This document shows positions 52,907-59,781 of a stretch of DNA of 64,000 nucleotides, one piece after another (position 1 is the stretch's first letter; each line of letters opens with the position of its first letter). The DNA is from Anaerosomatales bacterium (GTDB lineage Bacteria; Actinomycetota; Coriobacteriia; Anaerosomatales; Anaerosomataceae), in contig JASEEU010000002.1 of assembly GCA_030019445.1 (NCBI GenBank), positions 186,995 through 250,994 on the forward strand, read 5' to 3'. The notes below the pieces were generated by a model that had not been told where the DNA came from, ran no database searches, and was given only the letters and a program-made list of their open reading frames with translations. The position numbers and the translations under genes were made by a program.

Positions 52907-55270
52907 ATGTCGACACGCGATACGGACAGCAGCATACCGACGGTCCTCCCGCTGATCCCGCTGCGCGACCTCATCATCTTCCCCAACCTCGTGGTACCCC
53001 TCTTCGTCGGGCGCGAGCGCTCCATCAACGCGCTCGAAGAGGCGATGCGCACGGACCACATCGTTGCGCTCGTCACGCAGAAGACCGCCGAGACGCAGAA
53101 CCCCGAAGCCGACGACCTCTACGAGATCGGATGCGCGGTCACGATCCTGCAGGAGCTCAAGCTGCCCGACGGCACCGCCAAGGCGCTCGTCGAGGGCCAG
53201 CAGCGCTTCCGGATCCTCGAGTTCATCGAGATGGACCCGTATATGAAGGTGCGCGTCGAGCTGATCGACGAGGCCGAGGAGGCCGACGTCGAGACGCAGG
53301 CGCTCATGCGCACGCTGCTCGCCGACTTCGAGCACGCGTCCGAGCTCGGCAAGCCGATCCCGCAGGAGGTCCTCGTCGCCGCTTCGGGCATCGACGAGCC
53401 CGGAAGACTCGCGGACTTCGTCGCATTCCACCTCGCGCTCAAGGTCGAAGAGAAGCAGCAGATCCTCGAAGCGGTGGAGGCCAAGGAGCGGCTCCAGAAG
53501 ACCGCCGGCTTCCTGCGCAAGGAGATCGAGATCCTGGAGATCGGCTCCAAGATCCAGAACCGCGTCAAAGAGCAGATGTCCAAGACGCAGCGCGAGTACT
53601 TCCTCCGCGAGCAGATGAAGGCGATCCAGCAGGAGCTCGGCCAGTACGACGAGGTGCAGGCCGAGATGGACGAGTACCGCGAGAAGATCGCGGCGGCCGG
53701 CATGCCCGAGGATGTCGAGGAGAAGGCCCTCAAGGAGCTCGGCAGGCTGGAGAAGATGCCGCAGGCGGCTGCCGAGACGAGCGTGATCCGCACGTACCTC
53801 GACTGGCTTATCGGGCTCCCGTGGCAGGCGGAGGACGAGGAGAAGCTCGACCTCGTCGCCGCGCAGGAGATCCTCGACGAGGACCACTACGGCCTCGAGA
53901 AGGTCAAGGAGCGCGTGCTGGAGTACCTGGCGGTGCACAAGCTCACCGACCACATGCGCGGCCCGATCCTCTGCTTCGTCGGCCCGCCCGGCGTCGGCAA
54001 GACGTCTATCGGCAAGTCCATCGCGCGCGCGCTCGGCCGCAAGTTCATCCGTATGTCTCTGGGCGGCGTCCGCGACGAGGCCGAGATACGCGGCCATCGG
54101 CGTACGTACGTCGGCGCGCTGCCGGGGCGCATCATCCAGTCGATCAACCAGGTCGGGACGAAGAACCCGGTCTTCATGATGGACGAGGTCGACAAGGTCG
54201 GGGCGGACTTCCGCGGCGACCCGACCTCGGCGCTCCTCGAGGTGCTCGACCCCGAGCAGAACAACTCCTTCCAGGACCACTATCTCGAGGCGCCGTTCGA
54301 TCTCTCCAACGTCATGTTCATCACGACCGCCAACCTGCTCGATCCGATCCCACCCGCGCTGCGCGACCGCATGGAGGTCATCCACTTCCCGGGCTACACC
54401 GAGGACGAGAAGCTCCACATCGCGCGGCAGTACCTCATCCCCAAGCAGCTGACCGAGCATGGCCTCTCGGCCGGCAAGCTTGACATCAAGGACGACGCCA
54501 TCCGCGAGATCGTGCGCCGGTACACGCGTGAGGCCGGCGTCCGGAACCTGGAGCGCAACATCGCGGCGATCTGCCGCCAGGTGGCCCGCAAGGTGGTCGA
54601 AGGCAAGAAGGGTAAGACGACCGTCAGCATGCGCACCGTCGGCAAGTACCTCGGGCCGGCGAAGTTCAGCTTCGGGCTTGCCGAGAAGGACGATGAGGTC
54701 GGTGTCGCGACCGGGCTGGTCTGGACCGAGGTCGGCGGCGACGTGATCTTCATCGAGGCGACCAAGATGTCGGGCAAGGGCAAGCTGATCCTGACGGGGC
54801 AGCTCGGCGACGTCATGCGCGAGTCCGCGCAGGCCGCCGTCAGCTACATCCGGGCGCGCGCCGCGGACCTGGACGTCCCGGAGGACTTCAACGAGCAGTT
54901 CGACCTGCACATCCACGTGCCTGCAGCCGCCATACCCAAGGACGGCCCCTCGGCGGGTATCACCATGGCGGTCGCACTCACGTCGGTGCTCACCGGGACG
55001 CGCGTGCGGCGCGACGTTGCGATGACGGGTGAGATCACCCTGCGCGGCCGCGTCTTGCCCATCGGCGGCCTCAAGGAGAAGCTCCTTGCCGCGCACCGCG
55101 CCGGCATCAAGACGGTGCTCATACCCGCCGAGAACGAGCGCGATCTCGAGCTCGTGCCCGAGCACGTCCGGGATGAGATGGAGATCGTCCCGGTCGACCA
55201 CATGGACGCTGTCCTCCAGCGTGCCCTCGTCACCCCCTCCAAGCCCAAGAAGCGCACGCGCTCGTCCTGA
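52907..55270 (+). CDS. lon: ATP-dependent endopeptidase Lon
   Basis: A 787-residue LonA protease that degrades misfolded and regulatory proteins. It has an N-terminal substrate domain ([20 protein letters not shown]), a coiled region, AAA+ with Walker [10 protein letters not shown] (about 359) and Walker [11 protein letters not shown], and a protease domain with catalytic Ser in KDGPSAGI (about 682) and Lys in [13 protein letters not shown]. The ATG at 52907 follows GAAGGGACG. The promoter should lie in the 120 bases divergent from the DUF6049-like gene; TACGAT near 52839 is a candidate -10. Confidence 0.97.
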
Positions 55271-55604
55271 CCGTCCCTTGATAGCTGCCGGTGCCAGCCG
55301 CCCGCGCGATCGGGTCCCTGCGCGGCCCGGCCGCCGCGGCATGCTGCCGCCTGTCTGACGGATGCTTCCCGGGCGTTACGCCCCCACTGTGACGGGTATC
55401 ACACTTCTTGAGACGAGCGCACGGACAGGCGCTCCCATAGGGCAGATGTCGAGAACGCAACGGGACACGCTGATCCATCACCTGAAGCGACGGTCACCGG
55501 GGTGATGGGGAGTGAGCGGTGAGACCGGCCCACGCGGGGCCGGTCTTTGTTTTTGCCCGTTCGCTGCGGCGCTATCGACAGACCGCCGAGGAGGTGGAGG
55601 GACG
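55271..55604. other. Long leader/intergenic region between lon and the surface-protein gene
   Basis: About 330 bases without a gene. Within 55380-55520 several segments can pair (CCATCACC with GGTGATGG, for example), and a strong terminator hairpin with a T-run closes the region 60 bases before the next ATG. It could be simply the lon terminator with a promoter beyond it, or a structured leader with attenuation. I could not match it to a known riboswitch class. Confidence 0.45.
55522..55555 (+). terminator. Rho-independent terminator or attenuator before the surface-protein gene
   Basis: A ten-base-pair perfect stem, AGACCGGCCC (55522-55531) with GGGCCGGTCT (55537-55546), is followed by TTGTTTTT, the best T-tract of any hairpin in the window. 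Being 250 bases after lon and only 50 before the next ATG, it is better placed as an attenuator than as a lon terminator. Confidence 0.75.
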
Positions 55605-58094
55605 ATGGCACGGATGATGAAGAGGAGGACCCGCTCGGTCCGGTTCTTCGCCACGTGGCTGACCATCGCATTGGTCGTCGCGATCGTGGCTCCGGGCTCA
55701 GTGGTCCTCGCGGACGATGGAGGACAGACCGCCGATGTCGGTGTAGCCGAGAAGGTCATCGACGAAGGCGCGGTCGACGGGGAGGAGAAGGCAGCCCCCG
55801 AACCCGAAGCGCCGGTCGATGCGGCGCCACCTGCGGAGGAGCCCCCGGCGGACGCGCCAGACGACACCGTCGAGCCAGTGCTGGTCGAGGCATCGGCCGA
55901 GTCGGCGCCTGTGACGGCCCAGGGTGAAACCGTCTCGCTCGGTGCAGGCGGTTCTCCGCCGACGGATCCGGGTGGGAATCCGCCACTGTGTGATCCCGGT
56001 GTTCGAATCGAGGGCGCGTCGGCGACCGAGCCCGGTGGGCCGACAGACGTCGAGAGCGGAACGTACACTGCTTCGAGCTCGCGGACCCATGCGAGCCCGA
56101 GCGCGCCCGCGGACTACGAGATCACCATCACCGTTCACAATAGCGAGTCCACTGGACCGTGGTTCGACTGGGTCTCCAACTACCCAGTCATGAAGGTCGT
56201 CGTGAAGGGTGGAAACGACTTCGCCACGTACCTGTACGATCCTGCCGCCTACTCCGGCACAGGGCTTCATGCTCCGACCAACCCCGCGAACGGGAAGTGG
56301 TACGGGCTCAGCCACATCGACTTCTGCTTCGGGGAGTGCGAGGAACCCGAGACAGGCTCGATCACTGCATGGAAGTGGGAGGACTTGAATGGCGACGGCG
56401 TGTGGCAGTCCGACGAGGAGCCCTTCGAGCCGCCGATCGCTGGATGGTCCATGACCATCAAAGACGGCGAAGACGATGTCGCTTCCGGGCTCACTGACGC
56501 CGACGGCAAGGTCGTCTTCAGCGGTCTGGATCTGGAAACGGAGTACACCGTCGTAGAGGGTAGCGACACCGATTTCTACCCGACGACGCCAGCGACGCAG
56601 TCGGTGTACGCGCAGAGCGACGGTGTCGATGTCTTCTTCGGCAACGCCGAGTACGCGATGATCGTCGTGACCAAGTTCCACGACCTGAACGGCGACGGCG
56701 TGTGGCAGTCCGATGAGGAGCCCTTCGAGCCCCCACTCGAGGGCTGGGAGTATGAGCTGTACGACGCCGAGGAGAGCTTGCTGGCGACCGGCACGACGGA
56801 CGTGGTAGGCGAGTTGGTCTTCGCCGGTCTTGAGGTCGGGAGCTATTCAGTCACAGAGGTCGTCAAGCCGGGGTGGGCACTTACCACGCCGAACGATGTC
56901 GATGTCACGTTGATGTCGGGTGAGACGGCTGACGTGCTGTTCGGCAACGGGGAAGTCCTGTACGTGAAGACGTTCGAGTTCACCTATCCGGACAAGCCGG
57001 CCGGCGTCGACCTTAAGGTGACGTTCGACCTCAACGGTGAGCCGGAGAGCCTGTGGCTGACCGGCGAGGGTCCGGTGTACTCCGCCGAGATCGATGTGCC
57101 GTACCCGTATGAGATCGCCAACGTGGTCTGGTGGGCGGATGGACCTGACGGTCTCGTTGCGCTCGGCGAGACGCCGGGCGAGACGCTCGAGGGTGACCTC
57201 ACCAACGAGTTCGAGTACGATCCGTCGCTCTCCGGTCATAAGTTCAACGACTACAGCGAGGACGGCATCTGGGATGGCGATGAGCCGCCGATCGAGGGAT
57301 GGACGATCTTCCTGTATCGGGTCATCCCGCAAGACGTGGAGCTCTATGCCGTTCCCCCGCTGATCCCGGGCCTTGAGTTCGTGGCGAGCACGCTCACGGA
57401 CGAGAACGGCTACTACGAGTTCTCGGGCATGCTGCCTGGTCTGTACGTCCTGATAGAGGATCTGCCTGTAGGCTGGACGCAGTCAGTGGCGCCGGAAGGG
57501 CCGTTCCTGGTGGAGCATGGCACCGCGCTCGAGGATCTCGATTTCGGGAACTACGAGCCGTTCGTGCCCTTCACCGAGCTGGATCTGGCGATCCTGAAGG
57601 AGGCCAGCGCGGACGAGGCGGACCCGGGCGACACGGTCGACTACACCCTGACGTACTGGAACAACGGCGAGCTGCCGGCCACCGACTTCACGATCACCGA
57701 TGATTTCGACGAGCGGTACGTGGAGGAGGTCTTCGACGTCAGCGATGGCGGCGTGGTGGACATGGTCAACGGCACCATCACGTGGGACCTGGCGGGACCG
57801 CTCGCGATGGAGGACGGCGAGAAGACGCTTACCTACTCGGTGCGTCTGATCGAGGACATGCCGGAAGATGAGACCAACGTCGACAACGTCGTCGTCATCG
57901 AGCACCCGCGCGACACGGATCCGAGCAACAACACCGATGACTGGCGTGTCGTGGTGGACAACCCGGCGCTTCCGTTCACCGAGGAAGAGCCGTTCCTGCC
58001 GTTCACCGGCGGTAGCCTTGCGATGCTCATCGGTGCCGCGCTTGCGAGCGCCGGCATCGGTGTCGCGCTGCGACGTCGTCGTAGGGATGCGTGA
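55605..58094 (+). CDS. LPFTG-anchored surface protein with SdrD B-like repeats
   Basis: An 829-residue wall protein. It has a signal peptide (about 1-36), an acidic Pro/Glu-rich stalk, an unassigned domain (about 125-255), three SdrD/Cna-B-like units (two nearly identical WQSDEEPFEPP copies and DGIWDGDEPPIEGW) with Ca-binding-like DLNGDGVW loops, a DUF11 domain (about 660-780), and a sortase signal LPFTGG followed by a helix and a tail of five Arg. Such proteins mediate adhesion. A second LPFT lies a few residues upstream. The ribosome binding site is GAGGAGGTGGAGG. Confidence 0.88.
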   Translation: MARMMKRRTRSVRFFATWLTIALVVAIVAPGSVVLADDGGQTADVGVAEKVIDEGAVDGEEKAAPEPEAPVDAAPPAEEPPADAPDDTVEPVLVEASAESAPVTAQGETVSLGAGGSPPTDPGGNPPLCDPGVRIEGASATEPGGPTDVESGTYTASSSRTHASPSAPADYEITITVHNSESTGPWFDWVSNYPVMKVVVKGGNDFATYLYDPAAYSGTGLHAPTNPANGKWYGLSHIDFCFGECEEPETGSITAWKWEDLNGDGVWQSDEEPFEPPIAGWSMTIKDGEDDVASGLTDADGKVVFSGLDLETEYTVVEGSDTDFYPTTPATQSVYAQSDGVDVFFGNAEYAMIVVTKFHDLNGDGVWQSDEEPFEPPLEGWEYELYDAEESLLATGTTDVVGELVFAGLEVGSYSVTEVVKPGWALTTPNDVDVTLMSGETADVLFGNGEVLYVKTFEFTYPDKPAGVDLKVTFDLNGEPESLWLTGEGPVYSAEIDVPYPYEIANVVWWADGPDGLVALGETPGETLEGDLTNEFEYDPSLSGHKFNDYSEDGIWDGDEPPIEGWTIFLYRVIPQDVELYAVPPLIPGLEFVASTLTDENGYYEFSGMLPGLYVLIEDLPVGWTQSVAPEGPFLVEHGTALEDLDFGNYEPFVPFTELDLAILKEASADEADPGDTVDYTLTYWNNGELPATDFTITDDFDERYVEEVFDVSDGGVVDMVNGTITWDLAGPLAMEDGEKTLTYSVRLIEDMPEDETNVDNVVVIEHPRDTDPSNNTDDWRVVVDNPALPFTEEEPFLPFTGGSLAMLIGAALASAGIGVALRRRRRDA
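56391..56431 (+). repeat. Repeat unit in the surface-protein gene, copy 1
   Basis: A 41-base stretch that recurs exactly 300 bases later (56691-56731) with a single silent change (GAC to GAT). It encodes GDGVWQSDEEPFEP. Recent duplication or gene conversion of a B-like repeat is implied. Confidence 0.8.
56691..56731 (+). repeat. Repeat unit in the surface-protein gene, copy 2
   Basis: The second copy of the 41-base stretch at 56391-56431. Recombination between copies would delete or add one 100-residue repeat unit in frame. Confidence 0.8.
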
Positions 58095-58118
58095 TCCCGA
58101 CAGTCCGTCACCAACGGG

Positions 58119-58142
58119 ACGGGGCCGCGCGAGCGGCCCCGT
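58119..58142 (+). terminator. Terminator of the surface-protein gene
   Basis: ACGGGGCCGC and GCGGCCCCGT form a perfect ten-base-pair stem around GCGA, followed by TCT, 25 bases after the stop codon. Confidence 0.7.
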
Positions 58143-58154
58143 TCTGCATATGAC

Positions 58155-58183
58155 GAAGCCCCGGGAGGGAGGACCGGGGCTTC
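58155..58183. terminator. Hairpin between convergent genes
   Basis: GAAGCCCCGG and CCGGGGCTTC pair perfectly around nine bases. It follows the previous hairpin and precedes the end of the minus-strand gene, so it probably ends that transcript. Confidence 0.6.
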
Positions 58184-58209
58184 ATCCGTTCGGCTCGTGG
58201 TGCTCGGTC

Positions 58210-58773
58210 TCAGTTGGGCGGTACGTTCTCGCCCCAGTCGATGACGCCGTTGTCACGCCAGTCGATGATGTGCCAGATCTCGTGGCCGATGATGCGCTCC
58301 AGGCTGGCGGTGTGGCTCGGGCTGATGACGATGCGGCCTGACTTGTAGTAGCAGATCGCCTGGTAGCCGCGCGCGTCGCCGAAGCTCACCGTGCTGCCCT
58401 TGAGGATCGGGTACTTCGCGATGTAGCCGGCGAGGATCGATTGCGCGCGCGAGAGCTCGCTCGTGGACGAGGAGCTCGAACTCGTGCTCGTGGACGTGCG
58501 CGCTGCCGTCCAGCTCTTGGTGACCGTCGAGACCCGCTTGACCGGCGTCGCGGTCTTCGCCGCGGCGGCGGCGCGGAGGACGGTGCGCGAGTCGGAGAGG
58601 ATCTTGACCGGCTCCGCGTCGAGCGTCGCCAGCTTGGCCGAGACGGTCACACGCTGGGCCGCGGACGCGCTCTGCGGCGCGGAGGCCACGCCGAGCGTGA
58701 GCAGCGCGACGAGCGCAAGCGCGAGCAGCCCTGCGGTGGCGGTGCGCGCCGGTCGGTTCCTGAGTGACTTCAT
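58210..58773 (-). CDS. Secreted HExxH protein, putative zinc metallopeptidase under c-di-GMP control
   Basis: A 187-residue exported protein. A signal peptide covers about 1-40 (LLALALVALLTLGVASAPQSASA). A low-complexity Ser/Thr linker near 92-106 precedes a compact C-terminal domain containing GHEIWHIID (residues 163-171), a zinc-binding HExxH motif followed by an Asp that could be the third ligand. No family was recognised. The transcript begins with a c-di-GMP-I riboswitch, and the neighbours are a wall-anchored surface protein and a sortase. The ATG follows AAGGGGCGATCCAC. Confidence 0.7.
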   Translation of the reverse strand: MKSLRNRPARTATAGLLALALVALLTLGVASAPQSASAAQRVTVSAKLATLDAEPVKILSDSRTVLRAAAAAKTATPVKRVSTVTKSWTAARTSTSTSSSSSSTSELSRAQSILAGYIAKYPILKGSTVSFGDARGYQAICYYKSGRIVISPSHTASLERIIGHEIWHIIDWRDNGVIDWGENVPPN

Positions 58774-58805
58774 GTGGATCGCCCCTTGTCGATGCTGAGC
58801 GACAT

Positions 58806-58847
58806 ACGGCCCGACTCCCCCGCAAACAGCGCCGGGATGTCGGGCCG
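58806..58847 (-). promoter_or_regulatory. Expression platform hairpin of the riboswitch
   Basis: On the minus strand CGGCCCGAC and GTCGGGCCG form a nine-base-pair stem, extendable by TCCC/GGGGA. The 3' arm, CGGGCCGT (58813-58806), is also complementary to ACGGCCCG inside the aptamer (58947-58940), so the two structures could exclude each other. No U-tract follows, so translational control or a weak terminator are both possible. Confidence 0.5.
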
Positions 58848-58859
58848 ATACACGTGTCG

Positions 58860-58960
58860 ACTCAACCTCGGCAGTCCGGCTGTCGTAGGAGGCCTTCTGC
58901 CTCCGGTAGACCCGTGACTTTGCGAAGCGCGCCTTTCGGCGGGCCGTGCCTTTTTCGGGG
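58860..58960 (-). promoter_or_regulatory. Cyclic di-GMP-I (GEMM-I) riboswitch aptamer
   Basis: Read on the minus strand, the leader contains the landmarks of the c-di-GMP-I class: AAAAAGGCACGG, a hairpin CGCC-GAAA-GGCG with GAAA tetraloop, CGCAAAGTCACGGGTCTACC, a receptor hairpin GGAGGC..GCCTCC, then TACGACAGCCGGACTGCCGAGG. The CGCAAAG..ACGGGTCTA and TACGACAGCCGG segments are close to consensus. The switch lies about 90 bases upstream of the secreted HExxH gene. Confidence 0.85.
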
Positions 58961-59100
58961 AGCGGTTCCGATGTTCGCTTGTCAAACGCCGTACACTGTC
59001 ACTATCGGCATCGGGCGCGTGCTCCTTTACCGTTGGCGTGTAACGGATGTCACAACACCCGGTGATCGCTGTCACAGACTGGAAGCACGAGGTGGGCTCG

Positions 59101-59781
59101 ATGGCCGAACGGCGCACGACTATACCTGTCAGCGCTGTGGCGGGCAATGTCTTTCTCGGGATCGCAATCGGTCTTCTCGGCTACTACGCGCTCACGAGCG
59201 GACTGGCGTGGCTCGAGCAGCGCCAGCTGCGGGGAGAGCTCGAACCGCTCGGCGCCGTCGCGCGGGCACAGAGCTCGGAGATAGCGGTAGAGAGCGGACC
59301 GCGCCTCGACTTCGAGGGATGGGAAGGCGAGGACCGCGCGTACTGGGAGGCGTTGCCGGACGGGGGCGTCTTCGGGAGGATCGTCATCGAGCGGATGGAA
59401 CTCGATGCGGTCGTGGTGAAGGGCGTCGGAACCGAGGAGCTGAAGCGCGGGCCCGGGTGGATCGACTGGACCCAGGTGCCTGGCCCGGAGGGGACGTTCG
59501 GCGTCGCGGGCCACCGAACCACGTACGGCGCGCCGTTCCGTGACCTCGACAGGCTGGTCGAAGGCGACGTCATCACGTTCCTCTCACCGTACCGGCGGTA
59601 CGTCTACATCGTGTCAGGGACCGAGATCGTGACGCCGGACCGCGGGGACGTGCTCTTCCCGGGAGACGAGCCGATGCTCGGGCTCTCCGCGTGTCACCCT
59701 CCGTACAGTGCGGCGTACCGCTACATCGTCCATGCGAGATTGGCCGAGGTCCGTCGAATCAGCGACGGGCCGGAAGGGTAG
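59101..59781 (+). CDS. Class E-like sortase
   Basis: A 226-residue membrane transpeptidase that joins surface proteins to peptidoglycan. It has one N-terminal membrane helix (about 12-35) and catalytic residues His in VAGHRTTYGAPF, Cys in LSACHPPYSAAYRYIV and the following Arg. The ACHPPYS pattern is that of class E, whose known substrates carry LAxTG; the nearby surface protein has LPFTG. ATG 59101 is preferred to one 54 bases upstream because GAGGTGGG precedes it. Confidence 0.87.
   Translation: MAERRTTIPVSAVAGNVFLGIAIGLLGYYALTSGLAWLEQRQLRGELEPLGAVARAQSSEIAVESGPRLDFEGWEGEDRAYWEALPDGGVFGRIVIERMELDAVVVKGVGTEELKRGPGWIDWTQVPGPEGTFGVAGHRTTYGAPFRDLDRLVEGDVITFLSPYRRYVYIVSGTEIVTPDRGDVLFPGDEPMLGLSACHPPYSAAYRYIVHARLAEVRRISDGPEG

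Follow-up and report, generated by a model that had tools for sequence, protein, structure and literature searches.

This study concerns a locus in Anaerosomatales bacterium, a member of an order placed by NCBI in the Coriobacteriia, at which a putative adhesin, a secreted protein with an HExxH motif and a sortase are encoded side by side with riboswitches of the cyclic di-GMP (c-di-GMP) type. The stretch of DNA analyzed, here called the window, spans 64,000 nucleotides (contig JASEEU010000002.1, positions 186,995 to 250,994), and all coordinates below are positions within it. The putative adhesin is an LPFTG wall-anchored surface protein of 829 amino acids, whose gene runs on the forward strand from its ATG at 55605 to its stop at 58094. 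The gene for the HExxH protein (187 amino acids, with a signal peptide) lies at 58210..58773 on the reverse strand, so that the two genes are convergent, tail to tail; the sortase gene lies alongside at 59047..59781 on the forward strand. The HEIWH motif of the secreted protein (residues 164-168, encoded at 58270..58284 on the reverse strand) is predicted from sequence to bind zinc. The original prediction placed an LPFTG protein with B-like repeats, an HExxH protein with a c-di-GMP riboswitch and a sortase within 4.2 kb, and all of these are present. The riboswitch it described is a c-di-GMP-I aptamer upstream of the HExxH gene (58867..58960, reverse strand; RF01051, 57.8 bits versus a cut-off of 35), the sole c-di-GMP-I in the genome. 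It missed a second switch, a c-di-GMP-II-GAG aptamer directly preceding the surface-protein gene (55454..55538, forward strand; RF03169, 57.2 bits versus a cut-off of 40; core GGTGAGACC). All components of the observed locus are thus confirmed as genuinely present, and the observation is real. As the genome encodes 15 GGDEF domains, c-di-GMP signaling is present in this bacterium.

The surface protein contains three SdrD_B stretches (82.4 bits), together with SpaA and DUF11. Its C-terminus reads EPFLPFTGG, followed by a hydrophobic stretch and then RRRRRDA; the combination of SdrD_B domains, LPxTG motif, hydrophobic stretch and positive tail identifies it as an LPXTG wall-anchored SdrD_B protein. 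Generic wall-anchor models score marginally under their cut-offs for this protein (PF00746, 11.9 versus 20; TIGR01167, 14.9 versus 15.9). The sorting signal, encoded at 57996..58010 (forward strand) in a conserved EPFLPFTG context, is evident by eye and recurs in orthologs. These orthologs range from 225 to more than 2000 amino acids, some being cut by contig ends, and have in common a C-terminal DUF11-like segment ending EPFLPFTGG. In several adhesins, an (L/V)PFT element is doubled just ahead of the true LPFTG (L115, L125, L136, L121 and window 57961-58010; e.g. EPFLPFTEPFLPFTG, NPALPFTEEEPFLPFTG). The sortase matches PF04203 with 98 bits (cut-off 26.6) and reaches 113 bits against the NCBIfam class E model, under its cut-off of 160. 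Since it is the sole sortase of the genome, it is the only candidate for anchoring the LPFTG protein.

The HExxH protein matches no Pfam family and no NCBIfam model above cut-off, and in the Protein Data Bank (PDB) its sequence finds nothing better than chance. Across 53 homologs of the order, residues H164, E165, H168, D171, W180, E182 and P185 do not vary. Structure prediction had been proposed as a check, with the lack of a metalloprotease fold counting against the proposal, and a metalloprotease core is indeed predicted: AlphaFold2 places a helix, three strands and then the HExxH helix in residues 100-175 (an alpha-beta3-alpha core), with a block-mean predicted local distance difference test score of 96-98 over residues 111-170 and a low-confidence linker before them. 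In this predicted structure, the active-site helix carrying HExxH is backed by a helix and a sheet, as defines zincins. Foldseek ranks selecase and minigluzincins at the top (probability 0.96-1.00), followed by other zincins; the prediction makes the protein a minimal zincin, nearest to those top matches. With proabylysin, projannalysin and selecase (PDB 4jiu, 4jix, 4qhi), the predicted structure shares a minimal zincin core of ~70 residues, at 2.1-2.7 Å in the closest cases. Those proteins are archaeal and share ~15-19% identity with the HExxH protein, which differs in its signal peptide, its low-complexity linker and its very short C-terminal portion. The invariant D171 and E182 are candidate third zinc ligands, and distant homologs have D at the position aligned with E182.

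The protein was also compared with the PPEP proteases, of which PPEP-1 is from Clostridioides difficile, and with anthrax lethal factor, as had been suggested. The comparison recovered the zincin fold; the proteins named for it ranked far down, with PPEP-3 as the 29th Foldseek match (E=1.6, template modeling score 0.26), reflecting general zincin similarity only, and lethal factor as the 38th. Searches with the single protein or with a 53-sequence profile gave no PDB sequence match to any PPEP up to E=10. In PPEP-3, the C-terminal subdomain bears the catalytic Tyr190 and the third ligand Glu197, which lies 40 residues after the second histidine, His157 (PMC12828418). The HExxH protein ends at residue 187, only 19 residues past its second zinc histidine, His168, and such a subdomain is therefore impossible. 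Membership of the PPEP family (PPEP-1, PPEP-2 or PPEP-3) was rejected on these grounds, which bears out the caution that the protein is not an obvious PPEP homologue. The locus is not a PPEP system.

Each of the two facing genes has an expression platform of its own. The aptamer of the surface-protein gene overlaps an intrinsic terminator hairpin of 11 pairs followed by TGTTTTT (55521..55547, forward strand); the 3' strand of the aptamer, which takes part in the pseudoknot and P1, doubles as the 5' arm of the terminator, GAGACCGGCCC. Because of this shared strand, the ligand-bound aptamer and the terminator are mutually exclusive, and the ligand should therefore turn the adhesin gene ON by antitermination. 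Of 33 c-di-GMP-II sites, 26 have such an overlapping hairpin and a T-rich tail behind it. The class II switch in C. difficile is likewise ON (PMC11477304). At two loci (L139 and L141, in genomes G052 and G044), the adhesin is preceded by two c-di-GMP-II-GAG aptamers in tandem, separated by ~530 bases, of which the first has no overlapping terminator.

The leader of the HExxH gene is built differently. On the reverse strand, the c-di-GMP-I aptamer is followed by an expression platform (58788..58866) comprising an extension stem and a hairpin CGGCCCGAC/GTCGGGCCG with arms at 58847-58839 and 58815-58807, and then by the Shine-Dalgarno sequence AAGGGG (58782..58787). The aptamer's 5' flank (58957..58977, reverse strand) has two possible partners: its proximal CTCCCC (58962-58957) pairs with the Shine-Dalgarno sequence, forming a mask helix, and its distal half (58977-58968) pairs with the right flank of the hairpin, forming a competing helix. 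Native mask duplexes average -17.0 kcal/mol, versus -14.0 after partners are swapped between species, none of 5000 permutations being as low; the same signal (z about -7) is given by the extension stem and by the competing helix, and these swap tests, being inflated by shared ancestry, are supportive and no proof. In an alignment count, 18 cells of the competing helix show changes on both sides, versus 6.3 in shuffled alignments (0/500). Since it crosses both the extension stem and the mask, the leader looks like a translational two-state switch, in which masking of the Shine-Dalgarno sequence would alternate with a helix that frees it. No terminator was seen after the class I aptamer in the aligned leaders of the order. 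Constrained folding was discarded as a test of class I polarity; the helix it blocks is an inner aptamer stem and not the closing P1. A leader peptide in the window, MSLSIDKGRST*, with its stop overlapping the HExxH start, was rejected because it is not conserved. Just upstream of the class I aptamer, a TTGA-N-A element (window 58985-58980, reverse strand) is almost invariant in 40 relatives, with no recognizable -10 at the usual spacing.

The polarity of this switch decides whether the protease and the adhesin are made under opposite conditions or together. If the HExxH leader were an ON switch, both proteins would be made at high c-di-GMP, and the enzyme would mature or trim the adhesin with no shedding. 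The 5' CUCCCC of the aptamer could form a closing P1 with the 3' flank (by eye, this is possible in distant relatives), and a bound ligand would then expose the ribosome site; class I ON switches do exist, as before cap in Bacillus thuringiensis (PMC6366702). Against such co-induction, the closing P1 helix lacks coevolution support in the order (z +2.4) and forms in the alternative state in 0 of 40 sequences of the order. In distant relatives outside the class, a terminator follows the class I aptamer in 4 of 5 leaders, and 5 of 5 have an antiterminator, formed by a stretch of the platform that can pair with the 5' strand of the aptamer; as the folded aptamer excludes the antiterminator, these platforms fit an OFF switch. 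Co-induction is thus rather unlikely. An OFF switch is favored in this order, and we consider it somewhat more likely than not, because the mask is compatible with a folded aptamer, P1 is unsupported and the platforms of distant relatives fit OFF.

The arrangement is not peculiar to one genome. Homologs of the HExxH protein were found in 50 of 99 genomes searched (own genome included), all of the same order; the 30 genomes from the remainder of the class had none. Public genomes, scanned independently, gave matches only in records of the same group. A c-di-GMP-I switch lies upstream of 45 of 55 homologous HExxH genes, on the same strand and 93-502 bases from the matched segment. A c-di-GMP-II-GAG switch occurs within 10 kb at 28 loci, downstream on the opposite strand in every case (28/28). 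The block lon, adhesin, HExxH, sortase, epimerase and dnaK is widely syntenic; in the window, lon (52907-55270, forward strand) lies upstream of the surface-protein gene, with epimerase-like and dnaK-like genes beyond the sortase. When only loci with both flanks visible are counted, leaving out those truncated by contig ends, an LPxTG sorting signal faces the HExxH stop at 34 of 38 loci with the class I switch versus 0 of 7 without it (Fisher p=7e-6), so switch and adhesin come and go together. The locus is therefore conserved far beyond its own genome, as the original prediction had asked to be checked, and given this conservation a chance origin of the arrangement is excluded.

A profile search of 296 Actinomycetota detected nine more distant HExxH homologs in other classes. 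The class I switch precedes five of the nine, two of these five being the -GGC variant. LPxTG-type open reading frames (ORFs) face the HExxH gene at three of these loci (L201, L205, L208), and at L205 the HExxH gene has as neighbors the genes for an SdrD_B LPYTG protein and a sortase. No class II switch turned up at those loci.

As a result of its wiring, the locus can be compared with the CD2830 (PPEP-1/ZmpI)-CD2831 circuit of C. difficile. There, the protease gene adjoins the adhesin gene, a class I OFF switch controls the protease and a class II ON switch the adhesin, and low c-di-GMP leads to proteolytic release (PMC4591827, PMC6366702, PMC11477304). Here too, a secreted HExxH gene adjoins the gene of a sortase-anchored surface protein, class I lies on the HExxH gene and class II on the adhesin gene, and the adhesin switch follows ON logic; the parallel drawn in advance of this analysis is borne out, with both riboswitch classes on matching genes. 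Unlike its counterpart, the HExxH protein is truncated at the C-terminus and unrelated by sequence, the genes are tail to tail with a sortase alongside, the class I leader is translational rather than terminator-based, the class II aptamer is the -GAG variant and no Pro-Pro cleavage cluster precedes the anchor. We propose, with a probability of roughly 0.5, that cyclic-di-GMP-type riboswitches here control a conserved attachment module with the functional logic of CD2831/PPEP-1. At high ligand, the adhesin would be made, anchored by the sortase and retained; at low c-di-GMP, the secreted zincin would be produced and would release the anchored adhesin by a cut that probably falls in the C-terminal stalk. 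The module would be built from a different protease family than PPEP-1 and, in this order, on a different class I expression platform. It may be said with moderate confidence that the locus works like the C. difficile circuit. The suggestion that it was independently assembled is supported, and the locus looks like an independently evolved stick-or-let-go circuit.

Several results weigh against the adhesin-release model. On the RNA side, the number of pairs with two-sided changes in the competing helix is within shuffled expectation, shared ancestry underlies part of the swap-test signal, class I switches of the opposite polarity occur elsewhere, and in constrained folding the Shine-Dalgarno sequence is ~75% paired with or without the aptamer enforced. 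No ligand of the -GAG variant is established in the literature searched, and the genome also has canonical c-di-GMP-II switches. The best Foldseek E-value of the HExxH protein is only 0.019, and its third zinc ligand is at the stage of candidates. Some genomes keep the HExxH gene with neither an adjacent adhesin nor the switch. The substrate argument has also been lost. Pro-Pro does occur in all three B-like repeats of the window protein (FEPPI, FEPPL, DEPPI), as first noted; across the family, where repeats were counted with a simple regular expression, it is found in 5 of 73, three of those five in the window protein, and the orthologous repeat loops are mostly EPGL, EKGL or ENGL. Nor is it enriched in the adhesins of the order (152 observed versus 182 expected). 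Not being conserved across the family, Pro-Pro was rejected as a substrate signature, and the Pro-Pro reading cannot be transferred to the family. The candidate substrate adhesins yielded no conserved cleavage motif, whether Pro-Pro or another. The PPEP cleavage sites of C. difficile cluster just upstream of the sorting motif and not in B repeats (PMC4591827), and by analogy the short stalk preceding the anchor is a candidate cleavage region.

The missing cleavage motif bears on a second account, in which both genes belong to a shared c-di-GMP surface regulon with no enzyme-substrate relation, the target of the zincin being something else, such as other surface proteins, matrix or host polymers. 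At seven loci or more, HExxH genes are retained with no adhesin next to them, and c-di-GMP-I precedes other secreted proteins in the order too. We find this account somewhat improbable, in view of the co-occurrence of riboswitch and adjacent adhesin and of the tail-to-tail arrangement, which is kept, also across classes at three loci. As separate observations, HExxH paralogs without riboswitch or adjacent LPxTG protein lie elsewhere in the genomes of some relatives, at L142, L147 and L148 (G038, G015, G023). The other c-di-GMP-I sites of the order that precede predicted secreted proteins are L041, L042, L050-L055, L059 and L060; the ORFs of L041 and L042 contain an HExxH motif and are unmatched to the HExxH family of the window.

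The two aptamers might also respond to different molecules, with class I sensing c-di-GMP and the -GAG class II variant another cyclic dinucleotide. The adhesin aptamers have CGGUCACC/GGUGAGACC, as opposed to UGGGCACC/GGUGCAACC in the genome's two canonical c-di-GMP-II aptamers. All 40 class I aptamer sequences keep the GG of the GGCA motif, which we take to be the position deciding between c-di-GMP and cyclic GMP-AMP. The -GAG variant may simply be another c-di-GMP binder, and a two-signal circuit is unlikely. It is very unlikely that the HExxH protein is a pseudo-enzyme or metal-binding protein with no protease activity, an idea suggested by the very short domain, the candidate status of the third ligand and the weak Foldseek E-values, since all 53 homologs of the order keep H, E, H, D171 and E182 and the core with HExxH in a helix is predicted at high confidence.

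The adhesin-release model has further partial counterparts. In the LapG/LapA system of Pseudomonas, c-di-GMP governs the retention or proteolytic release of a large surface adhesin, as is proposed here. The protease there, LapG, is a cysteine protease of the periplasm and is controlled through LapD, a receptor protein for c-di-GMP, whereas the present locus relies on riboswitches. The cap collagen adhesin of B. thuringiensis is controlled by the class I riboswitch Bc2 (PMC4933901) and is likewise a surface adhesin under a c-di-GMP-type riboswitch; it differs in having the class I aptamer on the adhesin, and no protease partner was found described for it. A dual-riboswitch adhesin/protease circuit outside C. 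difficile had no match in the literature, in a search that took in few subscription journals.

Taken more broadly, the findings allow a tentative extension, namely that a stick-and-shed switch has evolved twice. Undescribed minimal secreted zincins of Actinomycetota, class I-controlled in several lineages, may release riboswitch-controlled wall-anchored adhesins, in this order through a translational two-helix switch and possibly under two dinucleotide signals. If true, such wiring, combined with an unrelated protease in a mostly uncultured environmental order of Actinomycetota, would mean that the logic was assembled more than once, and that dual-riboswitch control of adhesin and protease is not specific to pathogenesis. 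It would also define a new protease family with a predicted neighboring substrate. The -GAG aptamer gains a clear gene context for ligand finding.

Both genes have a further feature in common. A palindrome TGT-N-A-N6-T-N-ACA is present upstream of 14 of 33 c-di-GMP-II and 22 of 45 c-di-GMP-I sites, against shuffled expectations of ~0.05 and ~0.1. Those of the window fit TGTGA-N6-T(C/T)ACA and lie upstream of both riboswitches, TGTGACGGGTATCACA at 55388..55403 (forward strand) before the adhesin switch and TGTGACATCCGTTACA at 59039..59054 (reverse strand) between the HExxH and sortase genes. These CRP/FNR-like palindromes are taken to be a second control layer shared by the two genes. Elsewhere in the genome, on contig C21, the canonical c-di-GMP-II switches (RF01786, 71.2 and 62.9 bits; L095:6020-6103 and L095:10781-10864) both precede multiheme cytochrome genes, one encoding a 1510-amino-acid protein with MtrC/MtrF-like and cytochrome c7 domains and the other a 367-amino-acid protein. 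Extracellular electron transfer may thus be under riboswitch control as well, in addition to the adhesin with its -GAG variant.

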